Shown piece by piece: positions 3,610 to 63,220 of a stretch of 64,000 nt of DNA. The stretch is taken from NCBI GenBank assembly GCA_030674155.1, contig CM060325.1, positions 21,948,408 to 22,012,407 on the forward strand. The letters are read 5' to 3'. Position 1 is the stretch's first letter; each line of letters starts with the position of its first letter. The position numbers and the translations under genes are program-made. Source of the stretch: Stramonita haemastoma (lineage: Eukaryota; Mollusca; Gastropoda; Neogastropoda; Muricidae). Under the pieces are notes generated by a model that saw only the letters and a list, made by a program, of their open reading frames with translations, was not told where the DNA came from and made no database searches.

Positions 3610-6551
3610 CACACACACACACACACACCTACCCACAACACACAACACCCACCCACAATACACACCTACCCACCCATCCACAACACACACCCACAACACC
3701 CACCCACCCATACAACACAGACCTACCCACCCACAACACACCTACCTACCCACCCACCAACAACACACACTTACCTACCCACCCACAACACACACCTACC
3801 CACCTACCCACAACACACACACACCCACAACACACACCTACCCACCCCCCACAACACACCCACCCACCCACAACACACACCTACCTACCCCCCACAACAC
3901 ACACTCTAATGATGGTAATGATGGCAGCCAACGGCAGCTAAAAAATTACTGTGCGGGAGAGATGAACAAAGAGGCAGTCTGAGATGACAAAGACGAAAAA
4001 AGCCAGTGTAAAGTATTATGCAGTGACAAAAGGAAGAAAAGTCGGCATCTTTACGACATGGAACGAGGCGAGCAATTCCGTTACGGGCTACCACGGGGCC
4101 GCCCACAAAAGTTATAAGAGCCTCGGTAAAGCCAAAGACGCAATGGCGTTCTCCGGCTACTCGGATCCAGTTGTTTATGGAGACCAGGCTATGGACACGA
4201 ACAACGACAATGACACAGCAACAATATCTACAGAGGGTGAAATCAGTGGTGTAGAAAAGGAAAACGAAAAAACACTTACAAATGACGAAATGCTGGTGAG
4301 TACATCCATCGATGCATGTCACTGTGGTATTGAATTGAAGGGCCATTCTCTGAAATGCTGTGAATGCCAGAAAAAAAATCACTGGCCCTGCACGTCCCTG
4401 CCAACTTACCAACTTTGTGTATTTGCAAAAACATCACGCAAATACACATGCAGGGTGTGCGCAGAGGCATTTTACACCACCGAAAGCCTCTGCGAACAAA
4501 TCGAACTGGAAGCAGAGCTGATGAATGACGTCAAATCCACCATGACGTCCCCTGAAAGAAGACTGACACTGGACAAGAATTCCAAAAAACAAGAGGGATT
4601 AGAATCCCAGATTCAAGATATGAAGAAAGTGATTTGTAATTTAGAAAAATCTGTCAACTTCTTAGCAGAGCAAATGTATTCAGCCAATACAGAGTTGAAA
4701 GATCAAATAGAAGTAAGTCTTCTAAATTATTCAGCTTCGACAAATCAGACACTTCAGTTACCACAAAGAAACTCTACACCCCGAAAAAAGACACAAAAGA
4801 AGACCTTGAAAAAACAAAGAAAGTCGTCTACAAACAAAACCAGTTCTGAGGATAATTCAGCAGAACCTCAAATACCATCGACCTCTACTAAGGACAAAGT
4901 GAACCTTAGTGACCGCAGTCTTTTGCCTGATCGAGATGATGGTGCAGACCAATCCTCACCCACCTCGACCAGAACATCGGCATCAGACTGCGGGATGGGA
5001 TCTGTGACACCAGAGGGGACAACTGCAGAAAACAGAAGACCACAAACTGACGTGGGAAATGAAAACAGGAGCGAGATGTCCCATTCCGATTGTGAAGATT
5101 TGATCGAAGATGTTATGTCACACAAGGACAGTCTGCCATATGTACTCATTATGCATGACTCTATAATGGATGGTCTTGACCCCAGAAGACTTGGAGCTTC
5201 CTACGGGCTGTCAGCCAGAAAAAGAAAAGCATACACCCTGGCAGACTGTGAAGAAGAAATGAACAAAACCAAGGCTACCCCAGATGCTATTTTAGTTCAC
5301 TGTGGACTTAACAACTTGAAACAGCAAAACGCCCATGAGTCCGCAAGAATGAAAAAAAAAATGATAATCAAAATGAAAACAAAATTCCCACAGTCCAAAA
5401 TAATCATCAGCCAGACAATTCCATGTGGAGATCAACAGCTTGAGAGAAAAAGAAAACTCTTCAACGCCATGGTCTACAGTGAACTTGGCCAGGAAGACAA
5501 TGTCAATTTTGTAGAGCACAATATCCAACCAGGCTACAAAAGATTATACAGGGACAAATTTCATCCTTCTGCTCGAGGTAGCAGTATCCTTGCGAGTACA
5601 ATTGGCCGCTGTTTAGAAAGCCTGCTTTGGCAACAAGCACGGAAAAGAAAGCCAAGACCAAAGTTTGCTAACTTACCAAAGCGAAGGCAGCTGGACTCTG
5701 CAGCTGGAAATTATTTTCCATTTACCTCAAGAGAAAACGAGACTTCAAACAGATGTCATGGACATATTACTGACCAATCTAAAAGAGAAAATTATCAAGA
5801 AGGTGACGAATATATTGAATATGACAGAAACACTGCAAAACTCAAACCAGATTTCTGCTCTCAAAGAATTTCAAATAACAGATCAACTTCACAATCCCAA
5901 GAGATGTTCAATACCTCAAAACCTTGGGCTTTTGAGTCAAAAGACTTCGGCAAAACTCTTTGGAGCAATAAACAAAATCAACATCAACGAACAAGAAAAA
6001 GTTGGAACGATAGGAACCGGGGACAGGAACAACCTTGGAGAGATAGAGTAGAAAAAAACTATTATGACAACATCAACAGCAACAGAAGAAAGAACACGGA
6101 AGAAAATGAACAAACAAGAAACCATGGCCCACCTATCGCTACCAACGGAAAGAGACATGACTGGAGACTTGGGGCCTCAGGAAGATGGAGACACGACTGG
6201 AGATCTAGTCAGCCCCTTGGAGACCGACAACCTGGAGAGGAGTGGGCCGATGGCCTCTATGAGAAAGACTCTAGGTCTAGATACTGGCAGAGGCCAGCGT
6301 CCCACAGATCAGACTGGGCGGACTGGAGATACGGCCATCGCCACGGACACCGACAACGCTGGCAGTGGAGAGGTGACCAGTACGTTCCCAGGCAGTACTG
6401 GAGTACAGATGCTGACCAGAACTGGGCACTGAACCAAAGACAGCGAGAAGAGCCACCAAGACAGTACAGACAGTACAGAAACAGCAGACTGAACAATCGT
6501 CTGCATCACTGACACTTCCACCGTCATTCCTTTACTCCACAAAACATATCC

Positions 6552-6629
<78 letters not shown>

Positions 6630-6873
6630 TCACTCACTCACTCACTCACTCACTCACGGCACACACACACACACACACTCACGCAAACACACACACTCAC
6701 GCAAAACACACACACACACACATACCCCCCCCCCCCCCCCCACTGTCACCACCACCACCTTCATCCGTCACCTACATCATTGGCTCTACCATCCCTACTG
6801 TAACACTCATGCACACACATGCCCGAGCACGTGCACGCAAACAATGTAACACACGCACACACACACACACACA

Positions 6874-6921
<48 letters not shown>

Positions 6922-9900
6922 ACCAGCCCGCATGTAAATGTGGAATAAAATATTTAATAAATAATTCCTTACAAGGGAATGCAGTAGGGTGAGAAATTTT
7001 TAAAAAAAAAAAAAAAAAAAAAGGATCACTGTAACAGACTTACTACTTTCTTCCAGCATTTGGCTAAAATATTCTGCGTAACTGATGATGTCATTAATAT
7101 TTTTATGTAATTATAATGACTAACTTGTCAGTGGCGTCATTTTCAAGTGGTTCACACCCCCCCCCCCCCCCCCAATGACTTGGATCTATTCACTGTATGG
7201 ATTTTCAGATTTGAAAATACCTTGGAAGTTGTGTTTATTATTGAATGGAATGAAGACCGTTTTGTATTAATATGCAGATGGCTTCTAGCAAGAATATGTC
7301 TGAATGAATGATAACTGTATTGTGCTCCATATTGCTTTCTCATGCCGATAGAGTAATACAGCATGCATATTGGTTGTTTTTCTTAATGCTTGCTTGCTTG
7401 TCATATTTACTCTTTTAAAAATGTTAATTGTTAATGAAAAATGTTTTGACATGTAAACAAAAATTAGATTAAAAGAGGTAGAATTGTATAGGTATCAGTT
7501 GCATTCTAGTTCATCTCTCTCTCAAAAAAAAAAAAAAAGAAAAGAAAAGAAAAAAAAAAAAGAAAAGAAATACTAACATTACGATATCTACTTTAAAGAT
7601 GAAAATATTATCGTGGAATATCAGAAGTATTCATGGGAAAATTGATGGAATTGACACAAATAAACTTAAGGATGTAGAAGTAGAAAATATGTTAATGCGC
7701 TATGATTTAATCTTCTTACAAGAAACACACTTAGAAAAAAAGACACAGATAGTATAATGCTCCCTGGATATATATCTGCACATTACTGCAGACCACTGAA
7801 CAGTAAAGCATCAGGTGCTTCTGGTGGTGTTTCCATTTTTGTAAAGGAAAAGTATCGTCAATTTGTAAAATTTTTGCCTCAAAATAATGCTGATATAGCA
7901 TGGGTACAAATCTTAAATGGTCCTTATGATAATGATACATGTATAGGTGGAGTGTATATCCCACCTGAATATTCTTCCTTTGGAAAACGTCACACAATGA
8001 ACATATGGAATAAACTAGAACAAGACGTTGCATATCTATCTAAACAAAATACTATCATTCTCTGCGGTGATTTCAATGCAAGAACAGGTTGTTTAGAAGA
8101 CTTCATTCAAATGGACTATCCACAAAACTATTATGAGTTACCATGCAATTACAGTTATGATAACTGTTATGAACGGTGCTCTATGGATAAAATATTTCAA
8201 AGAAATGGTAAAAGACTTATAAATATATGTGTTGATTATGAAATGAGGATATTAAATGGTCGCACACTGGGAGATCTGCAAGGACATTTCACATGTTTTC
8301 AGCCACAAGGTTGTAGTGTTGTCGATTATTTTGCGTGTTCTAAATCTATCCAAAAGGAAGTGCGCCATATGAAAGTCGATCAATTAACAGAGTACTCTGA
8401 TCACTGCCCGTCCATTTAGACATTTCAATACCAAGAATAGATAACTATAAAGTGTTAAAAAGGAATGATCTGAGAAAAAAATAGACACAGTAATACTAAA
8501 GATAATAAGAAAATTACAAAGAATGCTTTACCACCCAGTTTTTACTGGGATGAAAATTCAAAACAGAGATTTCAAACCTCTTTTAAACTGTCGACCGTAC
8601 AGTCACGTATAAAAGATATAAAACGCAAAATGTGTATAACATTAAACACATATAACCAAAATGAAGAAGATGTTGATTCAGAAAATGTGCAAAAGTCAGT
8701 AAATGAGTGTGCTGAAAATTTGTCGGTAATTTTCACTGATGCAGCAAGATTAAGTTTGAAACTTAAAAAACGAAACATTTTAATAAAAAAGAAAAACAGT
8801 AAAAAGTGGTTTGATGGACATTGTGCAGAAATGAAAAAAGAAATAAAATCTTTACTTAACGCCATCAATCGGTATCCATTCAAAGTTGCTCTTAGACAAA
8901 AGTATTTTTCAAAGAGAAAAGAATACAATAGACTTTTAAAAGAGAAAAAGAGATCGTTCAAAAGCAGTCTCGTTTCGAACCTGCATAACGCAATAGATAA
9001 GGATCCTAGTGTATTATGGAAAACTCTGCAACAATTAAGGATAAGTGAAGAAAAAAATACAAGAGAAACAAATTTCCTCAATAACACAAAATGGATGGAA
9101 CATTTAAAAAAGCTGATAGGAAAAGAACCTTCTGTCAATCAAAAGAGAAAAGAACAAGTGCAAAACATGTACGAACTACTAACAAGACGCGAAAACCCGT
9201 ACTTAGACAGGCCCTTTACTAGAAAAGAAATCACGGAAGCAATAAAAACTTTAAAAAACAAAAAATCTCCAGGCAAGGATGGTATATTAAATGAAATGAT
9301 CAAATCCATCACCCCAGATATACTAGGTATACTGGAGTTACTTTTTAATGTTGTTCTTGATACAGGGTTGTATCCACATGAATGGAAAGAAGGCATCAGT
9401 ATTCCTATTCACAAAGGTGGATGCCCCTAAAGCCTGAAAACTACAGAGGAATCACATTGACAAACACTTTCGGTAAATTATTTTGCCAGATACTGAACAA
9501 TAGAATATGCAACTATCTAGAAGAAAATAACAAACTTGCCAAAGAACAAGCTGGATTTCGAAAGAAATGTAGAACTTCAGACAATATTTTCATTTTAAGT
9601 AAACTAGTTGATAACATATGCAAAACAAAAGATAAAAGGTTGTATTCTTGTTTTGTGGATTTTCAGAAGGCTTTCGATAGCATTTGGCATCAAGCTTTAA
9701 TGGTGAAACTGCATGCAATTGGAATAACTGGTAAATGTTTCAATCTGATTGAAGATATGTATACAGATGCCACAATATATGCAAAAGTAAAAGATACGTT
9801 ATCTGAAGAAATAGAAGTAAAAGTTGGGGTCCATCAAGGCGACACACTAAGTCCCACACTCTTTAATATCTACATTAATGATATCTTTCAACATATAGGA

Positions 9901-11549
9901 ATGATTGATTCTCCATATATAACGAACAATGATGTAGTCTCAGGTTTAATGTATGCAGATGATCTTATATTGTTATCAAATACAAAATCAGGTCTCCAAT
10001 CAAAACTGGATAAATTACATGAGTATTGTCTAAAATGGGGACTCCAAGTAAACAAAGAAAAAACCAAAGTTATAATCTTCACAAAATCTGTACCTAAAAT
10101 TCCTATTCATTTTAAATGTGGACAAAACCTAATTGAAACTACAGATAGGTATAAATATCTAGGTATAGTTTTTCATCAGTCAGGAAAGTTTGATGTGGCC
10201 CAGGAACACTTAGTCAAACAAAGTAACAAAGCTATTTATTCGCTGAAAAGAGCTCTACAAGGAGGTGTACTAAAAATAAATATTGTTATGCAGTTGTTTG
10301 ATGCCCTAATAATGCCTATTTTAACGTATGGAAGTGAAATATGGTTTCCTTATGGTTGTAATGTAAAAGATAACTTCAAAATAGATGATTTATTTAAAAT
10401 GTGCTTAACCAGTCAGTTTCATTTTGAAAGCACCCACGCAAAATTTTGCAGACGGATATTAGGAGTTCACAAAAAAACAATGGTCTTGCCAGTTTTCGGA
10501 GACTTAGGCAGATACCCATTAACGTTAAAAGTTATTAGTCATTTAATAAATTTTTGGATTCACATAATAGATTCAAAAGAAAATAGCTATTTGAAATTGT
10601 TATATAATGAAATGCACCAAAACAATGAAAAAGGTCACTGGATTTATTTTATCAAAACAATAATTCATAAGATTGGATTCAAGCATGTGTGGAATAATCA
10701 TAGTACATTAAATATGAAAAGATTATGCTATGCTATAAAAACAAAACTTGAAGAATTATACAGACTGTTTTGGAATCAACAAAAAAAGTTATTTTCTAAG
10801 CTGAATTTTTACAACTCTGTTTCACATGTTTACAGATTGGAGCCGTATCTTTTGATATGCAGGAATGAAAATTATAGGCGCCTATTCAGCAGATTTCGCA
10901 CCAGCTCCCATGATTTAATGATAGAGCAAGGGAGATATATGAATATACCGAAAGAAGAAAGAAAATGCAAATGGTGTAACAAAATAGAAGACGAGTATCA
11001 CTTACTTGATGTTTGTACATTATATGATGATTTAAGAAAATTTTTTATATCTAATGTCAATATTAAGGAAATGAATAATATGAATAACTACAAGAATCTG
11101 AGTAAGTTTTTCAATAACGAGGACTGTCTGCTAGATATGATCAAATATGTGCATGATTCTTTTTCCAGAAGAGCAAGAACATAGATACATTACATAAGAA
11201 AGAATCTACATCTTTTAAGAATGTTAAATACGTTTACGTTTGGTGTCAAATAAGTCTCGTTCTGACTTAATGGCAATAAAGTTTTCTGATTCTGATTCTG
11301 ATTCTGATTCTGATTCACACACACCCACAACATACACCTACCCACCCACCTAAAACACACACCTACCCACACACCCACAACACATACCTACCAACCCACC
11401 CACAACACACACACAACCCACAACACCCACCACAACACACACACCCCCACACCCACAACACACACACAACACAAACCTACCCACCCACACCCACAACACA
11501 CACCTACCCACCCACCCCACAACACCCCCCCCCAACCTCCCCCCACCCC

Positions 11550-11583
<34 letters not shown>

Positions 11584-14500
11584 ACCCCCCCAAACCCCCA
11601 TCCCCCCCAACCCCCACCACCCCAGCCCCACACCCCACCCCACACCCCCAACACACAACACCCACCTGATCCAAAAGTTCCTCCAGCTGCTGCCTGCCCT
11701 GCATGTTGCGGAGGCCAGGTGTGTTGGGGGAGCTGACGTTGATGACCAGGTAATCGGCCACCTTGCCAAACACCTTGACCCCCGACACGTAGTCAGCCAC
11801 CGGGTGACCCGACAGCTTGTTTTTGCCCAGGTTCACCCCCATCATGCCTCGCTCTGCCCAACAACACACACACACAAAAAAAGACAAATGAACACGTGTA
11901 CGCAAATGTCATGTACCTGTCACTGTTTGGGATTTTTATTATTTAAATCTTAAGGTAAAAAGGTAAAGGTGTCCCATAACCTTTTTGATTTACTTGATTT
12001 GATTTATTCTTTTTATATCGAGGATAATGGAATAAGCACTCTTGTGCTTTTTTTTTACATCCAGTCCCCGTGTGTACACAGTTTTGTAAATGTCATCTGT
12101 TCCCACCGGCACACGATGGCCTACTCTTACGAAAAGCGGAACAGGATTTAATGTGTGCCCAAGATTTCTGCGTGCGTTCGCACACGGGGCCTCGGTTTAA
12201 AGTCTCATCCGAAGGACGCCCAACACACAAAAAGACAATATACGCAAGTGTCGTGTACCTGTCACTGTTTGGGATTTTTATTTTAAATCTAAAGGTGTAA
12301 AGGTAAAGGTGTCCCATAACCAAGGCGGTCGTAGGGCAGCGAGGCATCAGAGACCTCAGCTTCTCTAGGGATCTGCATGTTGAGGGCAGAGCCCATCTCC
12401 TCTCCCTCGCTGCTTTACCTTCCCTGACCCTAAAGAGGGCAGGTACCCATTTACAGCTGGGTGAACTGAGGGACTGTAATGAAGCCAAGGCGTGCAAACG
12501 GTCGCCTATCCAACTGGTAACCATGCTTGATGCTGCTTAACTTGACAGGGGTAAGCGAGCGCTCTGACCACTTAGCTATCCCACCCCCTATTTTCTTTTT
12601 AAATATAGGTATATCTAACTGATGCTATGATGGGAAGGGAGGGGACGTGATAGCCTAGTGGTCAGGACATTGCGCTCACAATCTGACGACCCGGGTTCAA
12701 TTCCCTTTCAAGGGAATATTTTCCTCTAGAGTTAACATCAGTTCTGACTTCTCTTTCCCCAAAAGTCTTTTGGATGAGTCTATAAACCAAGGCCCCGTAT
12801 GCGAAAGCACACAGAACATCTTGCGCACATGTTAAAACCTGTTCTGCTTTTTGGAAGAGTAAGCAATTGTGTGCATGGGGGAACAGACGATAAAATTGAC
12901 AAAACTGCATATACATGGGGACTGGATATAAAAAGGCACATGAGTGCTTCTTCCATTATCTTCAATACAAAAGAATATAAATATAAATAAATAAATATTA
13001 AGTTCTTATGTTAAGGAATAATATTATGTCAGATTGAACAAAAATGTTGACTACAACAACAAAAATATTATCGTTTACAAACAATTACAATTTTTATCTG
13101 TTTGAAAAAAACAAAAACAAACACACACACACAAAAAAAACACACAGAGAAAACCAATACCACAGATTATGAGAAAAAGCGGAGGAAAATAAATACAAAT
13201 AGCCAGTTACATCTTCATCATTATAAAAATGATTAATCAAAGCTGGAGAGAAAAAACCTATAGAATGAACTTGTTCAACACAGCATTTGAGGTATTTTTG
13301 AATAAGGACCATAATCATGCATTCCATGAATACTAAAAGGGCATCACTTGTAAAGCATAAAAATCAAAGATTTACTCAGTTTTCTTCACTGTTGCCATGG
13401 AAACAATCCAATATGGCCACCAAAACTAAATGTTTCAAACTCCTAAACCTTTTTTCTTTAACAAGTTGAAGTAACCTGTTTTTACAGACATTTTTTTACA
13501 ACCGGAATCGTTTAAAATCACACAGTGAGAGCTTCATAAATGTATCCAGCAGTTGTTTATTCTAAAAAAAACATGGTTAAGGGCACTTTTGGACCCGTGT
13601 CTACCCTTAAACCTCCATGTAACAAAATTTTTTAAACAACTTAACAAACAACCATACTTGAAGGTTAAAACCAATTCCCAAAAGCAACCTGTTACATGAA
13701 ATATCTTTTTTTTTTAAATCATGTTTGAAAACCAGTCTTTGGGGGCAGGATAGCCCAGTGGTTAGTGTTACATTCCTGATCTGCCTGCCCAAGATCAAGC
13801 CACAACGAAGGCACCTGTTTCAGGGAATTTACCCTGGAGTTATCATCAGTACTGACTCCATCCCCCCCACCCCCCACCCAAAAAAAAAGTTCTTTGGATA
13901 CGACTATAAACCAAGGCCCTATGTGCGGATGCACACTGAACACCTTGCACACACATTAATTAAAGCCTGTTCCGCATTTTAGAAATTAAGGCTATATTTT
14001 CTTGCCCGCATGAACAGATGACAAATTTTGTTAAAAACACATGCACACAGGTGTCATGTGTAGACACCTTCCCCAAAGTTTGAATGCGGCTACCTTACTG
14101 GTAGGTAAAAATGGTCACATACTATGCAAAATCTCACCATTGGAGCTCTAGCCAAAGAACAGGGGGAAAAAATAGTAGTGTTAGAAAAAGAATTTACAAG
14201 AGAGCATGGGTGGCACCATCCTGATGTGACATCAGCTACAGATAACTGCTTTTTCAATGTTCACAAACACAACACCACTTGTAATACCAAAACATAAACT
14301 GAGGCAAAGCAGGGGCATGTCTTCATAAAAACCAATCCAGAACAATTTATCATGCACAACACAAACGAGCGAAAGAATGTCAACGTGAAGCAAAAAAAAC
14401 AAAACAAATGCAATAAATAAAGCAACATTTTAAAAACACACACAAAAAACCCCAACTTTTTATAAAGCAATGCCAAATGCTGCAACAATGAGGCATCTGA

Positions 14501-17183: not shown

Positions 17184-20100
17184 TTAATTCCTAGAAATCA
17201 TTCAAAACAACAATAATTTGAACATTTGAATAAGAAGGTAAATTTTAACAGATTTTTGGTTTTGAATTCATAAGTTTTAATTCTGCATGATGTACTTTCT
17301 TCTTCTTCCTTTTATTTGTTGTTGTTGCTGTTATCGACCAGTGCTAAGGTTTTAACAATAAGTTCTAATAGTAGTAGGCATCCGTAAGTCTCAGAAGACT
17401 ATGGAGTTGTGCTCCAGGCTCTAGAGTGCAAAGCCTGGGTAAGTCAGTATGGAGGGCAAGCTGTTACCCATGCAGCAGACCAACCCCCTCCCCCCTCTCC
17501 ATGTCACTGGAATGCTCCATTGGAAAGGCAATGACCGATACGAATGGTTCCAGTGCCATCGCAGGAGCCGCTAGAACATTGCCATATAGGCCTACAGCCC
17601 CGAACCACCCTAGGGACTACAACTCCCTGATTTTTCCTCAGGGATAGTGTCTAAACATGACACCTGTGTGCATTCTGGTTTTTTATTTTGTTGTCATCCA
17701 CTCCTACTGGCACACAATGGCTTGCTCTTCCAAAGGCAGAACAGGTTTTTAACATGTGCGCAAGATGTCCTGCATGCATTCGCACACGGGGGCCTCGGTT
17801 TATAGTCTCATCCGAATGACTTACTTCTGAAGATATGGCGGAAAGGTTCACCTGTTTATGATGGCTTCATCCAAATCACTTACTTCTTACTTAAAACATG
17901 GCGGAAAGACTCACCTGTTTATGACGGCTTCATCCAAATCACTTACTTCTGAAGATATGGCAGAAAGGCTCACCTGTTTATGACGGCTTCATCCACATCA
18001 CTTACTTCTTACTTACTTAAGACATGGCAGAAAGACTCACCTGTTTATGACGGCTTCATCCAAATCACTTACTTCTTACCACAGACATGTCAGAAAGGCT
18101 CACCTGTTTATGACGGCTTCATCCAAATCACTTACTTCTTACCACAGACATGTCAGAAAGGCTCACCTGTTTATGACGGCTTCATCCAAATCACTTACTT
18201 CTTACTTACTTAAGACATAGCGGAAAGAAAGGCTCACCTGTTTATGACGGCTTCATCCAAATCACTTACTTCTTACTTACTTAAGACATAGCGGAAAGAA
18301 AGGCTCACCTGTTTATGACGGCTTCATCCAAATCACTTACTTCTTACTTACTTAAGACATAGCGGAAAGAAAGGCTCACCTGTTTATGACGGCTTCATCC
18401 AAATCACTTACTTCTTACTTACTTAAGACATGGCAGAAAGACTCACCTGTTTATGACAGCTTCATCCAAATCACTTACTTCTTACTTAAGACATAGCGGA
18501 AAGAAAGGCTCACCTGTTTATGACGGCTTCATCCAAATCACTTACTTCTTACTTAAGACATGGCAGAAAGAAAGGCTCACCTGTTTATGACAGCTTCATC
18601 CAAATCACTTACTTCTTACTTACCTAAGGTGGGACACTGGGGTCGAAACTGATGAAATTTTGTTTACTAGAAGCCCATGTTAAAAGTTATGCCATATATT
18701 GAAAGGGCATCACTTGTAAAGCACAAAAATCAAAGAATTACTCAGTTTTCTGCACTGTTGCCATGGAAACAATCCAATATGGCTGTCAAAACTAAATAAA
18801 TATTTCAAACTCCTAAACCTTTTTATCTATAACAAGTATGAGCAACCTGTTTCTACAGACATATTTTATGATCTGAATTCTTTAATTCACAAATCTCCAT
18901 AAATGTATCCAGCAATTTTTCTTTCTAAAAAAAACATGATTTGGGCCACTTTTGGACCTGTGTCTCACCTTAAGACATGGTGGAAAGAAAGGCTCACCTG
19001 TTTATGACGGCTTCGTCCTCCACCAATCGGAAGACGCGAGGCTTGTCGTTGCCCTTTTGCGGGTGTGGGGTGATGCTGCCCACCTCCACGAAGCCAAAGC
19101 CCATCTTCAGCAGGCCGTCCACTGCCTCCCCCTGCTTGTCAAAGCCAGCAGCCAGGCCCACAGGGTTGCTGAATGTCCTGCCCCACACTTCCGTTTTCTG
19201 TGCCACACCAACACACACACACAACAGGCAAACACATCTTAGTTTTATTGTTGTTGTTGTTATTGTTGTTATTGTCTTCATAGATCCTACAATTATTTTT
19301 TTAATATAAAATTATTTACAGTCAATAATTGGATATCATCTTTGATGCACTTGCTATCCTTTATATAATCTGGGATCAAGCCAGCTGAAAGGCCTACAGA
19401 TTTTTTTTTTTTTTTTTTTAAATTCTTTTATATCGAGGACAATGGAATAAGCACTCTTGTGCTTTTTTTACATCCAGTTCCCGTGTGTATACAGTTTTGT
19501 AAATGTCATCTGTTCCCACCGGCACACGATGGCCTACTCTTATGAAAAGCGGAACAGGATTTAACGTGTGTGCAAGATGTTCTGCGTGCGTTGTTGCACA
19601 CGGGGCCTCGGTTTAAAGTCTCATCCGAAGGACTTGTGGGGAGAGTGGAGTCAGCACTGATGTTAACCCCAGGAGAAAAATCTCCTCAAACGGGAATCGA
19701 ACCCAGGTCGTCAAATTGCGAGCGCAATGTTCTGACCACAAGGCAATCCCCGTCCCCCCACACCAACACACACAACAGGCAAACACGTCTTAGTTTTGTT
19801 GTTGTTGTTATTGTTGTTGTTGTCTTCAGAGATCCTACAATTAATTTTTTTAATATAAAATTATCGTAACATATTTACAGTCAATAATCTGATATCATCT
19901 TTGATGCACTTGCTATCCTTTAAATAATCTGGGATCAAACCAGCTGAAAGATCTACAGATTTTTTTTTTTTTTGGCAGGGGGGTTGTTCTTTGGCTAGAG
20001 CTCCAAGGTTCACCAATGGTGAGATTTTGCATAAACTGTTTTTGCCCACCATGAAGGTAGCCGCTTTCCAACTTCGGGGATGTATGCTGGATATGTTCAT

Positions 20101-23100
20101 GTTTCCATACCCACTGAACACTGACACGAATTACACTTACAGGATTTTTAATGTGCATTGTTTATCTTTTACTTATGTACACATACACATAAAAGAATAA
20201 ATAAATAAATAAATAAATATATAAAGGCAAAGGGGATTAAGGCACTGGCAGATCTGCACTTGAAGTTGACCTGAGAGATCAATCCTTCACGCTCATGATA
20301 CACAACTGCCCTCATTTGCACTGTAAGTTCCCACATGCATGCATACATACATACACAATTACAGTTCTGCACATTTTTGCTGTTTTCTGCTTTGTTTATT
20401 GTGAATCAAGGGCTTTACTTCAGATGCACTGATCCCAATTACCAAACAGCTGTCTTCATTCTTTCAGTTACATGCAAACACACATGCCTTGCATGTTTTT
20501 GCTAATTACAGTATCCAAACAGCCAGCCAAACACACCGGTCTTCTCTTATGTTATTATAGGCAACAGGTGGCACAACAACAATCAGAATATCATTCAACA
20601 TATCAAGTCAGAAGCACTGTACATAACCACTGACAATGAAAGTGGGATGCCACAAGTAAGAGAGCCAGAGAGGGTGGCATCAAAAGAGAGAGAGAGAGAC
20701 AAGCATTAACAGTAATATAATACTCTTCTAATCAGTTATTTTGACTTGACTTGACTTGATTTATATCCATGTTATACACATAATGTTCTGTATAAACAGG
20801 ACTCAAAATAACTAAAATAGTAGCCAAAAAAAATGTGTTCACTTAAAATAGTCAATTGACATTGACACTACTGTAAAGCAGAGTTCACAGAAAAGAGAAG
20901 GAAAGGAGCACATACAAAGACAGGGGAGAGGGGGGGGGACACCCTACACACATAATTTACACAATGTTCTTGACAATGTGTCCACTTACCAACGTGACGG
21001 GGTCTGCCAGCTTGGGTCTGGGCACAAGCTTGTACTTGGCTGCAGTGACGGACACATTGTGTGCTGTTTCTGGATCCAGCATCCTCAACAGCGGCATGGC
21101 TATTTCTTCATAAAACTTCTCATCTCCCCGGTAAAGGCTGATCCCGAAGAATGTCAGGACACCGCCATTCAAAACAATGGCTGCCTGCTTTAACTGATCC
21201 TGCAAACACATAATTTTATATTATAAATATATATGTCTTTCAATTGAACTCTTTGGTGTTCACATATCCATTATTAAATATTAACGTTACATTCAATATT
21301 CATATTGATACCGATTTTTTTTATTCAACCTTTCTTTAAATAAAAAGGATTTTATTACTTATTTCAAAGGTAAAGGTGTCCCATGACCTATGTGGTCCCA
21401 GGGGAGCAAGGTGTCAGAGATCCCAGCTTCTCTAGGCTGTCGGGGTCAGCATATTGACGATGGAGCCCATCTCCTCTCCCTCGCTGCTTCACCTTCCCTG
21501 ACTCTTAAGAGGGTAGGTGCCCATTTACAGCTGGGTGAACTAGGTGACTGTACTGAAGCCAAGGTGCGCAAACGGTCACCCATCCAATACTGGCAATAGG
21601 TAACTCACTAACTGTGCTTGATGCTGCTTAACTTTGGCTTGGGGAAAGTGAGTGCTCTGACCACTGAGCTCTCCCGTCCCGCTACTTATTAACTACTGGA
21701 AATAAGAATAATCTGTGTGCAAGTAAAACAAGACTTTGGATAGAATTTACATACGAGTAATAAACTAATGCATTTGACAGTATGTAGTGAACATTACCAA
21801 TGCTACGCAAATCTTCTGTATGAGAAATTTATTTCACCAGTCCTGGATCTTTTGACCTTTACAAACTTTGAAATCTGTAAGATAACAGCTTAACGCAAAA
21901 CGCCAAAAGTTCTACAGAGCTTTTATTGCTGTTTTATTGAATCTGTCATTTGTTTCTCATTTATTTGCTGGTATGGTCATTTAAGTACAGGGTTCGCGCT
22001 AGGATTTTTAAAACCGGTACTGCGAGTTGCCATTTCAGAGATATCTTGACCAACTCCCCCAAAATCAGTCCCCAGAAAATAAAATCCGGTACGTACTGTG
22101 AACAAAACGAAACTATTCAGTGAGGGGGTGGGGGAGGGGGGATTGTTCGGCAGCAAAACTAAATCTAAATTGAACCAAATCTCTCAGACTTTGACTGCCG
22201 TGCTGCAGCCACTCGCTTCTTGGGCATGAAGCCACGCAGGAAATAGGATTTTTTTTCTAGCGCCTGTGCCACTGTCCGTGTCAGTCTGTTGTTTTGCAAG
22301 GCATCATTCGTGAGACTTGTATTCTTCTTTCTTGTTTCTATGCTTAGCGCTCATCTAGATCTTTCGTTCAATTAAGATTTAGTTTTCGACTCTTCTCTCT
22401 CAAAGCAACGCGCAAATTCATAGTCAAAGACCCTCCGCTTTTCGCTTTTGGTAAGAGCAGGCCATCGTGTGCCGGTGGGAACAGATGACATTTACAAAAC
22501 TGCATACACATGGGGACTGGATGTAAAAAAGCACAGGAGTGCTTATTCCATTATCCTTGATATAAAAGATTAAAAGAATAAAGATTAAATAAATCTAGGC
22601 CCCATTTACTCATTGTGAATGGAAGTTACTGTCATGCCGAGAAGAGCGCGAAGCTCTATTCTTTCACAGTAAAGCTTGCTGTTCTGCGTGCTAGGCTAAT
22701 GAGGCTGGCGCCAAAGACGTTCGTCGGAAGTGGTGGTGGTAGGAAGGGGTAGGTGCGTAAGCACAGTACAGGCGCATGACAGACTGTCAGAAAATGTCAC
22801 TTCAGACTTTTTTTTTGAGACGGAAATCTAATCGGTCACAGGCAAACAGAATCGGTACGCGGTACCGGCTGCTTCGAAAATTTTCGGTATTCCCTGTTTA
22901 CAATCGGTAAAATACCGACAATTACCGGTTATCGCGAACCCTGTAAGTATTGAAGACAAATCTGCGTAGAATAAAAATGTACAGACGTAGCAAAACTCCA
23001 GGCAGCAAACAAAAATAATCTGATTTATAAATCTTTTTTAAGTGAATATCATGTGGGAGGGGGGGGGGGGAAGGCATAAGAAATTGTGAATGATAATAAA

Positions 23101-24989: not shown

Positions 24990-26930
24990 GTAGGCCCTAT
25001 CTATCTGTCCTTTAGTCTGGGACCGTGGGGGCACCCATGGGGGCACCCCTGAAGACTTGACAACCAGTTCCCTCCATTCCTATCTCTGTTTTGCCTTTAA
25101 AAAATTCGTTGAGGTCTGTGCCTGTGCATTTGCTGATGTACTCCCATCTCTTTTTTGGTCTGCCTCTATTTCTTCCAATAAAAGAATTTGCCTTGCGTTG
25201 CCTCCTTGGACAGTGTCTTGCAGTATTGTTTTTGCAAGTCCTTTTGATCTTGTGACATGCCCCTACCATTTAAGTTTACGTGTCTTTACGACTGGCAGAC
25301 GGTTTTCGTAGGGACCAATAGTTTGCTGGATTCTGTTATGTACGTCTTCGTTGCTTATGTGATCTCCGGAAGCATCTCATCTCTACCGCCTGTACTCTTC
25401 TCTCCAAATCAGTGGTCAGGGTCCACGATTCATAGGCATACAGGAATATGGAAATGACAATGGATCACATTAGTCTGATCTTGGAGTTGAGTGAAATATT
25501 TTTATCTTTCCAGATGGTGCTCAGTTTTGACACTGTTGTTATTGTCTGTGCAATCCTGCATACTACCTCCGGCTTGGACCCCTTGCCTGATACAACCCTC
25601 CAAGTACTTGAAGCTTTGAACATTTTCAGCTTCTGGTCATTGACCCTGATATCAGTGCTGATGCCCTTGGCGTTATTGGTCATCAGTTTGGTCTTCTCTG
25701 CACTGATTTCCATGCTGTATGTTTTAGAGGCCTTGTTCAGGTGTTCTGTTAGGCTGGCAAGCTCTTGTTCTGATTCTGCTAGTCAGTCAATGACTTCTGC
25801 AAAGAGGAGGTTTGTGATAGTTCTGCCACCAATGCTAAGTGATCGGTTATGGTGTTCCAGTGCATCAGCCATGATTCTCTCAAGGAAGATGTTGAATAGA
25901 GTGGGCGAGAGTAGACAGCCCTGCCTTACTCCAACTGTTGTTCAAAACCACTCTCCAGTGTTGCTGTTGTAGCACACTGCACTGGTGGCCTTTATGTACA
26001 GCTCTTTGATATAACTCAGATCAGGTTTGCATTGATGCTGTACAAATTCATAGTTGCCCACAAAGCTTCATGCCACGCCCTGTCCAATGCATTCTTAAAA
26101 TCAATAAATACGTGGTAGAGGTCTTGTTGGTGTTGAACATACCCTCACAGAGTATTCTGAGGTTGAATATCTGTTCAGTTGTGCTTCGCCCTGCTTTGAA
26201 ACCTGCTTGTTCCTCAACAAATTATGGTCTCTGCTTGTGGCTTTAGTCTGTTCAATATAATCTTCAGCATGACCTTGCTTGGGTGGCGTATGAGGCTGAT
26301 TGTGCGGTAATTCTGGCACTGCTGAAGATTTCCCTTCATGGGGAGGGTGATGATGAGTGACTGTGTCCATGGTGTTGACCATTTTCCTGTCTGCCAGATC
26401 TTAATGCAGATTTTTAGTAGAGCGTTGATCATGGCTTCCCCCCAGCTTGAACCGTCTCAGCTGGAATGTTGTCAGCCCCTGCTGACTTCCCCTTTTTCAG
26501 CGATCTGACAGCTGTTTGTTTCCACTTCTTCTCGGAGGATAGGGTGACTGTCTGTATTTGTGCTTATGGGGACATTTTAGGACTTCTGGATCTCCTGTGG
26601 TTTTGTAGTTATACAGGTCAGAGCAGTATTCTGTCCATCAGTTCAGAATATCCTGGTCATCAGTGAGGCACTTCCATTTTTGTTTTGGATCCTTGAGCTT
26701 CTTCCCTGTTTTGTGCCAGTCAGGTCTTTCACCAGTTGGTATGCTTTCCTGCTGTTATTTTTCTTGATGTTTTCTTCAATGTCCTGGCACTGTTCACCAA
26801 TCCATTTCTCTTTCGCTTCTGTCATGGACTTCCCGATTCTTTTGTTGAGTGCCCTACATTGTTCTGCTCTTTCTTCTGTTTCATTTTTCTTTTTTTTCAG
26901 TTTTAAGACGCTAGATATGTTCAATTAGGC
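24990..26930 (-). pseudogene. Decayed LINE reverse transcriptase, copy 1
   Basis: Broken frames on the minus strand read, from 26930 leftward, a charged linker (KAYQLVKDLTG), the RT palm NYRTISLIRHPSKVMLKIIL (~26330), then LLFAEVID where an active enzyme has FADD (~25800), EISAEKTKLM, and a C-terminal PKKRWEYI-type end near 25100. There are many stops and shifts. It resembles the endonuclease-RT family common in invertebrates (RTE-like), clade not certain. Confidence 0.75.
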
Positions 26931-27794: not shown

Positions 27795-27859
<65 letters not shown>

Positions 27860-28071
27860 AGTCCTTCGGATGAGACTTTAAACCGAGGCCCCGTGTGCGA
27901 ACGCACACAGAACATCTTGCGCACACGTTAAATCCTGTTCCGCTTTTCGTAAGAGTAGGCCATCGTGTGCCGGTGGGAACAGATGACAATATTTACAAAA
28001 CTGCATGCACACGGGGACCGGATGAAAAAAAGCACATGATTGCTTATTCTGTTATCCTCGATATAAAAGAA

Positions 28072-28102
<31 letters not shown>

Positions 28103-33659: not shown

Positions 33660-63220
<29,561 letters not shown>

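Follow-up and report, generated by a model that had tools for sequence, protein, structure and literature searches.

The window analysed here, a 64,000-nucleotide stretch of the Stramonita haemastoma genome, contains a LINE whose first open reading frame (ORF1) joins an RNase H1-type hybrid-binding domain (HBD), a divergent PHD-type finger, a predicted coiled coil, an SGNH esterase and an arginine-rich tail. The same order of domains recurs in a second LINE family of this genome and probably outside it, ORF1 moves together with ORF2, and the HBD is both the module most conserved between families and one under purifying selection. On balance we favour, at somewhat better than even confidence, the view that these proteins form a distinct conserved class of ORF1 in which the HBD clamps the RNA/cDNA hybrid during target-primed reverse transcription (TPRT). 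The parts of the element are as follows.

3906..11316, + strand: LINE insertion of ~7.4 kb, delimited by minisatellite flanks and matches to other copies
3984..6512, + strand: ORF1, 842 aa, exact ORF boundaries
4011..4139, + strand: hybrid-binding domain of RNase H1 N-terminal / Cauli_VI type (residues 10-52), by PF01693 and 1qhk
4317..4460, + strand: PHD-type C4HC3 finger, divergent, residues 112-159, by ligand pattern and homologues
4593..4703, + strand: predicted coiled coil, about residues 204-240, by a simple heptad score
5124..5663, + strand: SGNH esterase, residues ~381-560, by alignment to 4c1b, Pfam scan of the piece, motif and model
5664..6509, + strand: basic low-complexity tail rich in Arg, Trp and Tyr, residues 561-842, by composition
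6513..7598, + strand: CA-repeat-containing spacer of 1.1 kb between ORF1 and ORF2, which belongs to the element since it lies within continuous copy-to-copy matches
7599..11184, + strand: ORF2, encoding an APE endonuclease and a reverse transcriptase in a frame that is interrupted here, by Pfam and reading frames
11284..11316, + strand: 3' tail (TTCTGA)5.5, with eight other copies ending likewise

The earlier note had read 3984..6512 as a retrotransposon ORF1, and the surroundings of the frame agree: an ORF2 encoding an APE endonuclease and a reverse transcriptase (RT) lies downstream, the element ends in a simple-repeat tail, and dispersed copies share its ends and run contiguously across ORF1 and ORF2. 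More specifically, separate open pieces of the window's ORF2 match Exo_endo_phos_2 (E 1.5e-8) and RVT_1 (E 1.5e-37) in Pfam, and no Pfam match to an RNase H domain was found either in these pieces or in the intact ORF2 of the second family. A 25-bp minisatellite occupies both flanks of 3906-11316 and hardly occurs outside them: selected 14-mers of it matched three times in the remainder of the window (once adjoining the right array and twice near 61.4 kb). Most other copies align from window position 3914 onward. Among the 34 loci examined, counting the window's own, the match extends to the 5' end in 20, and in 15 of these 20 the hexamer ACTTCC directly precedes GGTAATGATGG / GGTAATGATGGCAGCC (3906-3925; L002-L029); the window's own copy has a start that differs from this family form. 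We take ACTTCCGG, at the 5' end of the family, to be similar to an ETS-type promoter site. Base composition is uneven along this one mobile unit, with 44% G+C in ORF1 (3984-6512) and 31% in the RT part of ORF2 (9382-11184), and ORF1 may thus have a separate origin. The spacer also carries an A-run, located ~40 bases 3' of an AATAAA.

In the genome of the window, which spans 2.17 Gb in 9373 contigs, ORF1 has at least 59 matches, counting those from more distant families; the figure is a minimum as 54 of 7012 candidates were scored. Eight of the 59 are full-length and stop-free, the window's among them, at 96-100% identity. At two loci the match runs contiguously from inside ORF1 to the 3' tail, at 98.0% (L033) and 96.2% (L034), demonstrating that ORF1 and ORF2 are mobile as one unit. 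The LINE family to which the window's ORF1 belongs is active or has been so recently. Loci L031 and L032 belong to a second family, whose ORF1 (P0002) is 38% identical to the window's (P0001) with the same domain order; L031 has an intact ORF2 of 1191 aa (L031:4074-7649; endonuclease E 4.8e-12, RT E 1.4e-38), and the RTs of the two families are 56% identical.

Outside this genome, a profile run against 5.8 billion proteins identified three relatives at E<=0.01 among 7350 candidates. Identity to the query is 34% over 97% of its length for P0005 (799 aa), 35% over 89% for P0006 (743 aa, a transcript in EukProt) and 28% over 18% for P0007 (705 aa, E 1.4e-10; 15 member sequences, an 828 kb contig). 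Compared pairwise with P0001, P0007 has the HBD (3e-13), PHD (5e-12) and SGNH (3e-7) modules in the same order, and Pfam detects all three in it. We observe that P0007 also has a likely coiled coil between its PHD and SGNH-type modules, the same order as in P0001. P0005, P0006 and P0007 are putative LINE ORF1s too. Protein searches with P0001 or its residues 1-100, searches of viral contigs with P0001 or the RT, and a search of a genome contig collection with P0001 returned no relative. This order of domains has thus been conserved across two or more families here and probably in other genomes.

Conservation is unequal along the protein. Mean pairwise identity among P0001, P0002, P0005 and P0006 is 68% in the HBD, 62% in the PHD finger and 55% in the SGNH domain, against 38% in the coiled coil, 30% in linker 1 and 24% in both linker 2 and the tail, making the HBD the most conserved module between families. 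Within the family, pN/pS over pairs of the eight open copies, which share ancestry and hence are not independent, is 0.33 overall, 0.09 in the coiled coil, 0.11 in the HBD, 0.33 in the tail, 0.37 in the SGNH domain, 0.45 in the PHD finger, 0.59 in linker 2 and 1.23 in linker 1; the HBD is under purifying selection. When a profile of four ORF1s was run against the PDB, the 14 matches at E<=1 consisted of three RNase H1 chains, six PHD chains, the LINE esterase 4c1b, three other SGNH esterases and one unrelated chain, with the PHD chains (MLL, PHF13) at E 0.034-0.84 and MLL1 PHD3 at E 0.034.

The N-terminal module had been aligned by eye with the RNase H1 N-terminal (Cauli_VI) domain at residues ~11-57, and profile searches bear this out. 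PF01693 matches residues 10-52 of the whole ORF1 with E 1.2e-14 (54.7 bits, gathering threshold 21), and E is 2.1e-16 when residues 1-72 are scanned. The closest solved chain is the N-terminal domain of yeast RNase H1 (1qhk, E 1.1e-8), with 22 of 42 residues identical. ORF1 thus has the HBD in common with eukaryotic RNase H1 (1qhk, 3bsu) and differs from it in that no RNase H catalytic domain was found in ORF1 by Pfam and in that the equivalent of human K60 is replaced. NCBIfam matches only residues 7-62, to the beginning of an RNase H model, and tblastn with the HBD matched seven phage records, four annotated as ribonuclease (H) and three unannotated. Structure prediction, which the earlier note had proposed as a check, did not help here: an AF2 model of residues 1-175 made with no alignment was useless (pLDDT 35), and therefore the HBD fold stands on sequence homology.

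All five proteins (P0001, P0002, P0005, P0006 and P0007) retain the residues that correspond to human Y29, W43 and K59. K60 is replaced by Ser in P0001, P0005 and P0006, by Ala in P0002 and by Gly in P0007, and the window's HBD has Gly at the equivalents of both R52 and A55. In the human domain, W43 and K59 are also among the residues that contact nucleic acid. Papers by Cerritelli, going by their titles, reportedly present the domain as a binder of both dsRNA and hybrid. According to the accessible part of PMC7657459, K60 and Y29 of human RNase H1 touch the DNA backbone while the main chain at R52 and A55 touches RNA, and the fly HBD retains K60 and Y29 with two other positions changed. A tagged RNase H1 HBD preferred DNA-RNA hybrid, with little affinity for single- or double-stranded DNA, ssRNA or dsRNA; at high concentration it bound dsRNA weakly (PMC7888926, accessible part). 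The same domain has been reported to bind dsRNA as well as hybrid (PMC1950709, accessible part), so that the ligand of the ORF1 HBD may be dsRNA. This HBD is plausibly still able to bind an A-form duplex.

A complete C4HC3 set had also been described at residues ~112-159, and all eight ligands are present (Cx1Cx10Cx2Cx4Hx2Cx19Cx2C), with PHD spacing apart from the first pair, which is CxxC in P0007 and CxC in the other four proteins. Shuffling residues 96-175 20000 times reproduced the ligand pattern once, and 20000 shuffles of the whole protein never did. Comparison with PHD models was only partly favourable: the fingers of family 2 and P0007 match Pfam PHD, but the window's own finger does not, whether scanned in the whole protein or as a piece. 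The family-2 finger, whose eight ligands all align with those of the window's, matches PF00628 with E 6.3e-5 as a piece (23.4 bits, gathering 24) and with E 0.067 (13.7 bits) within the whole of P0002; P0007 scores 24 bits (E 4e-5), P0005 11.6 bits (E 0.3) and P0006 10.4 bits (E 0.7). In the PDB, the family-2 finger matches ARID4 (E 4.3e-4), a chain that is presumably a PHD, as well as MLL1 PHD3 (0.0081) and PHF13 (0.026), and the window's finger aligns 8/8 ligands with the PHF20 PHD at E 4.3, which is not significant alone. We accept residues 112-159 as a PHD-type finger and regard it as divergent in most of the five proteins. As a rule PHD fingers have a conserved aromatic residue two positions ahead of the His, tied to methyl-lysine reading; this position is Lys in P0001, P0002, P0005 and P0006 and Trp in P0007, making methyl-lysine reading doubtful in the four proteins that lack the aromatic.

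The SGNH core had been placed at Ser393, Asn443/444 and Asp524/His527. S393, N443, D524 and H527 are indeed found there and are invariant in the four aligned proteins, while the block-II Gly was not placed. Pfam finds no SGNH family in the whole window ORF1; residues 373-559 scanned alone match Lipase_GDSL_2 with E 7.4e-7 (30.3 bits, just under the gathering threshold of 32.9). The nearest solved chain to this segment is 4c1b, itself a LINE ORF1 esterase (E 0.0029). S393 lies N-terminal to the part aligned to 4c1b and was placed by its motif and because it follows the first strand in the model. In the 4c1b alignment, H439 and S476 are the equivalents of ZfL2-1 H191 and S228 and are invariant in all four proteins; P0007 has Gln at the H439 position and keeps the S476 equivalent. 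According to the accessible part of PMC3905857, H191 and S228 are conserved in transposon esterases only and the double mutant is inactive. The model of the esterase is of low confidence (pLDDT 55), with PAF-AH as its best Foldseek match (E 1.2e-4); four of its five matches at E<=0.001 are SGNH proteins and one is a designed scaffold. For the whole of P0005 Pfam gives no GDSL family, and its esterase is supported by alignment; in P0007 the Pfam match is weak (E 0.013). Upstream of the esterase, 10 of 10 a/d positions are hydrophobic in the best 35-residue windows of the coiled coil by a heptad score that is a simple, uncalibrated predictor. The tail of ORF1 is 14% Arg with a net charge of +16, and P0002, P0005 and P0006 have basic tails as well.

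Among described proteins, the closest in plan are the esterase-type ORF1s of CR1, L2 and RTEX elements, exemplified by zebrafish ZfL2-1 (4c1b; Schneider et al. 2013, PMC3905857, accessible part), which have the same catalytic Ser, Asn, Asp and His, the transposon-specific His and Ser, an upstream coiled coil, long linkers and a basic region. The window's ORF1 is unlike them in its extra N-terminal HBD. The accessible text of that paper states that none of the esterase ORF1 proteins in RepBase has a structural RNA-binding domain, a generality to which the present class is an exception. PHD-containing ORF1s of CR1/L2 lineages have a separate literature in Metcalfe and Casane 2014 (PMC4120745): in its accessible part, many CR1/L2 ORF1s contain a PHD, located as here in the N-terminal half, and esterases occur in two vertebrate subgroups only. 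Table 1 of that paper gives these subgroups, L2_9 and CR1_7, without a PHD (CR1_7 with a low-probability 'zf') and, unlike the window's ORF1, places an HBD in no subgroup. A Cauli_VI domain is known on another mobile element, a pfam01693 gene captured by a Pleurotus Helitron (PMC4289320, accessible part), as cargo of a fungal DNA transposon and not as a LINE ORF1 with PHD and SGNH modules. The earlier note knew of no LINE clade with this three-part order; we likewise found no account of it in the searchable literature by titles and the starts of abstracts, with Repbase and subscription journals outside this scope. PHD-containing ORF1s of CR1/L2 lineages were reportedly also treated by Kapitonov and Jurka in 2003. 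Since neither Table 1 nor the RepBase survey has an HBD, the combination of HBD, PHD and SGNH is new relative to the accessible literature.

The junctions of the copies point to a target preference. We sought 3' junctions in 13 copies, of which 4 were unmatched and 1 ran into N, leaving 9 readable junctions including the window's. The motif ACACACA directly follows the 3' end in five of the nine (window 11316-11325; L005, L011, L016, L018), compared with 1.3% of + strand positions and 0.2% on the other strand elsewhere in the window (binomial 5e-8 against the higher rate). Additionally, a CA/GT run of at least 12 bases lies within 100 bases of the 5' end in 9 of 20 flanks (L001-L029), compared with 4.1% in the window (P 3e-8) and 17.4% at more distant upstream positions of these copies (P 0.004); with a background taken from a single window and from stretches that overlap, the P values are rough. 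We favour preferential insertion of this LINE family at (AC)n-type microsatellites. With (AC)n targets, target-site duplications are obscured: a 5-base TATCC repeat is suggested at L007/L034 only, and the 3' side of L033 also reads TATCC. The 3' end of L031, from the second family, adjoins an ACTC array at ~7780. PMC4120745 (accessible part) refers in its Discussion to microsatellite-targeting LINEs.

Just past the 3' end of the window's LINE, 11507-11905 on the - strand holds an exon-like piece of dihydroorotate dehydrogenase (DHO_dh E 1.9e-13), and the LINE thus appears to lie beside or inside a DHODH gene. Another RT remnant lies at 25423-26315 on the - strand (tblastn E 6e-7 against the ORF2 RT). 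The window also contains dispersed short, SINE-like repeats, ~77-93% alike and in both orientations (11982-12217, 19400-19635, 22440-22601, 27859-28096 and 35987-36129 among the matches listed), and tandem arrays at 17808-18628 and 48040-48860 with self-matches of ~90%. Rfam and tRNA scans across the window found nothing.

We envisage that ORF1p would most likely form multimers through the coiled coil and then coat the RNP of the element. The N-terminal HBD would supply the structured nucleic-acid contact missing from other esterase-type ORF1 proteins, gripping RNA-containing A-form duplexes, most plausibly the RNA/cDNA hybrid formed at the target site in TPRT. The Arg-rich tail may add general RNA affinity, the PHD finger may dock onto a chromatin protein, and the esterase may act in a lipid or membrane step; by analogy, the esterase, coiled coil and basic tail would suit RNP assembly with a lipid step of the kind proposed for ZfL2-1. 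From the sequence, handling of hybrid by the ORF1 HBD is plausible.

With K60 replaced and both hybrid and dsRNA described as ligands of the domain, we hold the hybrid reading only slightly above even and give real, though clearly minority, weight to a packaging role, in which the HBD binds structured or double-stranded parts of the element's own RNA for RNP assembly. That the position of K60, which touches DNA, has changed argues against a DNA strand in the duplex, and the report of the domain as a binder of both dsRNA and hybrid (PMC1950709) agrees with packaging; on the other side stand the retained equivalents of Y29, W43 and K59 and the preference of the tagged RNase H1 HBD for hybrid, with dsRNA bound weakly at high concentration (PMC7888926, accessible part in both cases). 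ORF2 begins ~1.1 kb downstream of the ORF1 stop, a distance in keeping with the notion that the HBD helps translation of ORF2 from a bicistronic RNA, comparable to the related caulimovirus ORF VI protein with polycistronic RNA. In the virus, this activity would reside in the Cauli_VI domain. We consider such a role of the HBD unlikely, as LINEs without an HBD translate ORF2 too.

Less probable still is a decoy that shields the hybrid from host RNase H1 or competes with it. The domain family is that of host RNase H1 and Pfam detects no RNase H in ORF2, as such a decoy would have it, but host RNase H may aid LINE insertion, since RNase H2 reportedly promotes LINE-1 (PMC6068448, accessible part). 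Finally, the G+C difference between ORF1 and the RT and the A-run past the AATAAA in the spacer could have suggested a single-copy fusion, a misassembly or a host gene beside an unrelated LINE. This explanation is refuted and keeps practically no weight: the 59 genome matches, the contiguous ORF1-ORF2 copies at 96-98%, the second family and the outside relatives with the same order rule it out, and the fusion seen in the earlier note is not an accident of one copy.

Returning to the hybrid clamp, we put forward tentatively, and with more doubt than confidence, a broader version in which this is an old, separate ORF1 class present across several eukaryote lineages, with its own clamp on the nascent cDNA/RNA hybrid that would time the removal of RNA by host RNase H and with TPRT coupled, at AC-repeat targets, to a lipid-modifying complex bound to chromatin. 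How esterase ORF1s hold nucleic acid was an open question in 2013 because the RepBase members had no structural RNA-binding domain (PMC3905857, accessible part). The HBD class may offer a direct and testable answer to it, built on a well-studied module of ~45 residues that is easily expressed and mutated, and a LINE that carries the substrate-recognition part of RNase H1 would bear on how the RNA/cDNA hybrid is handled in TPRT.
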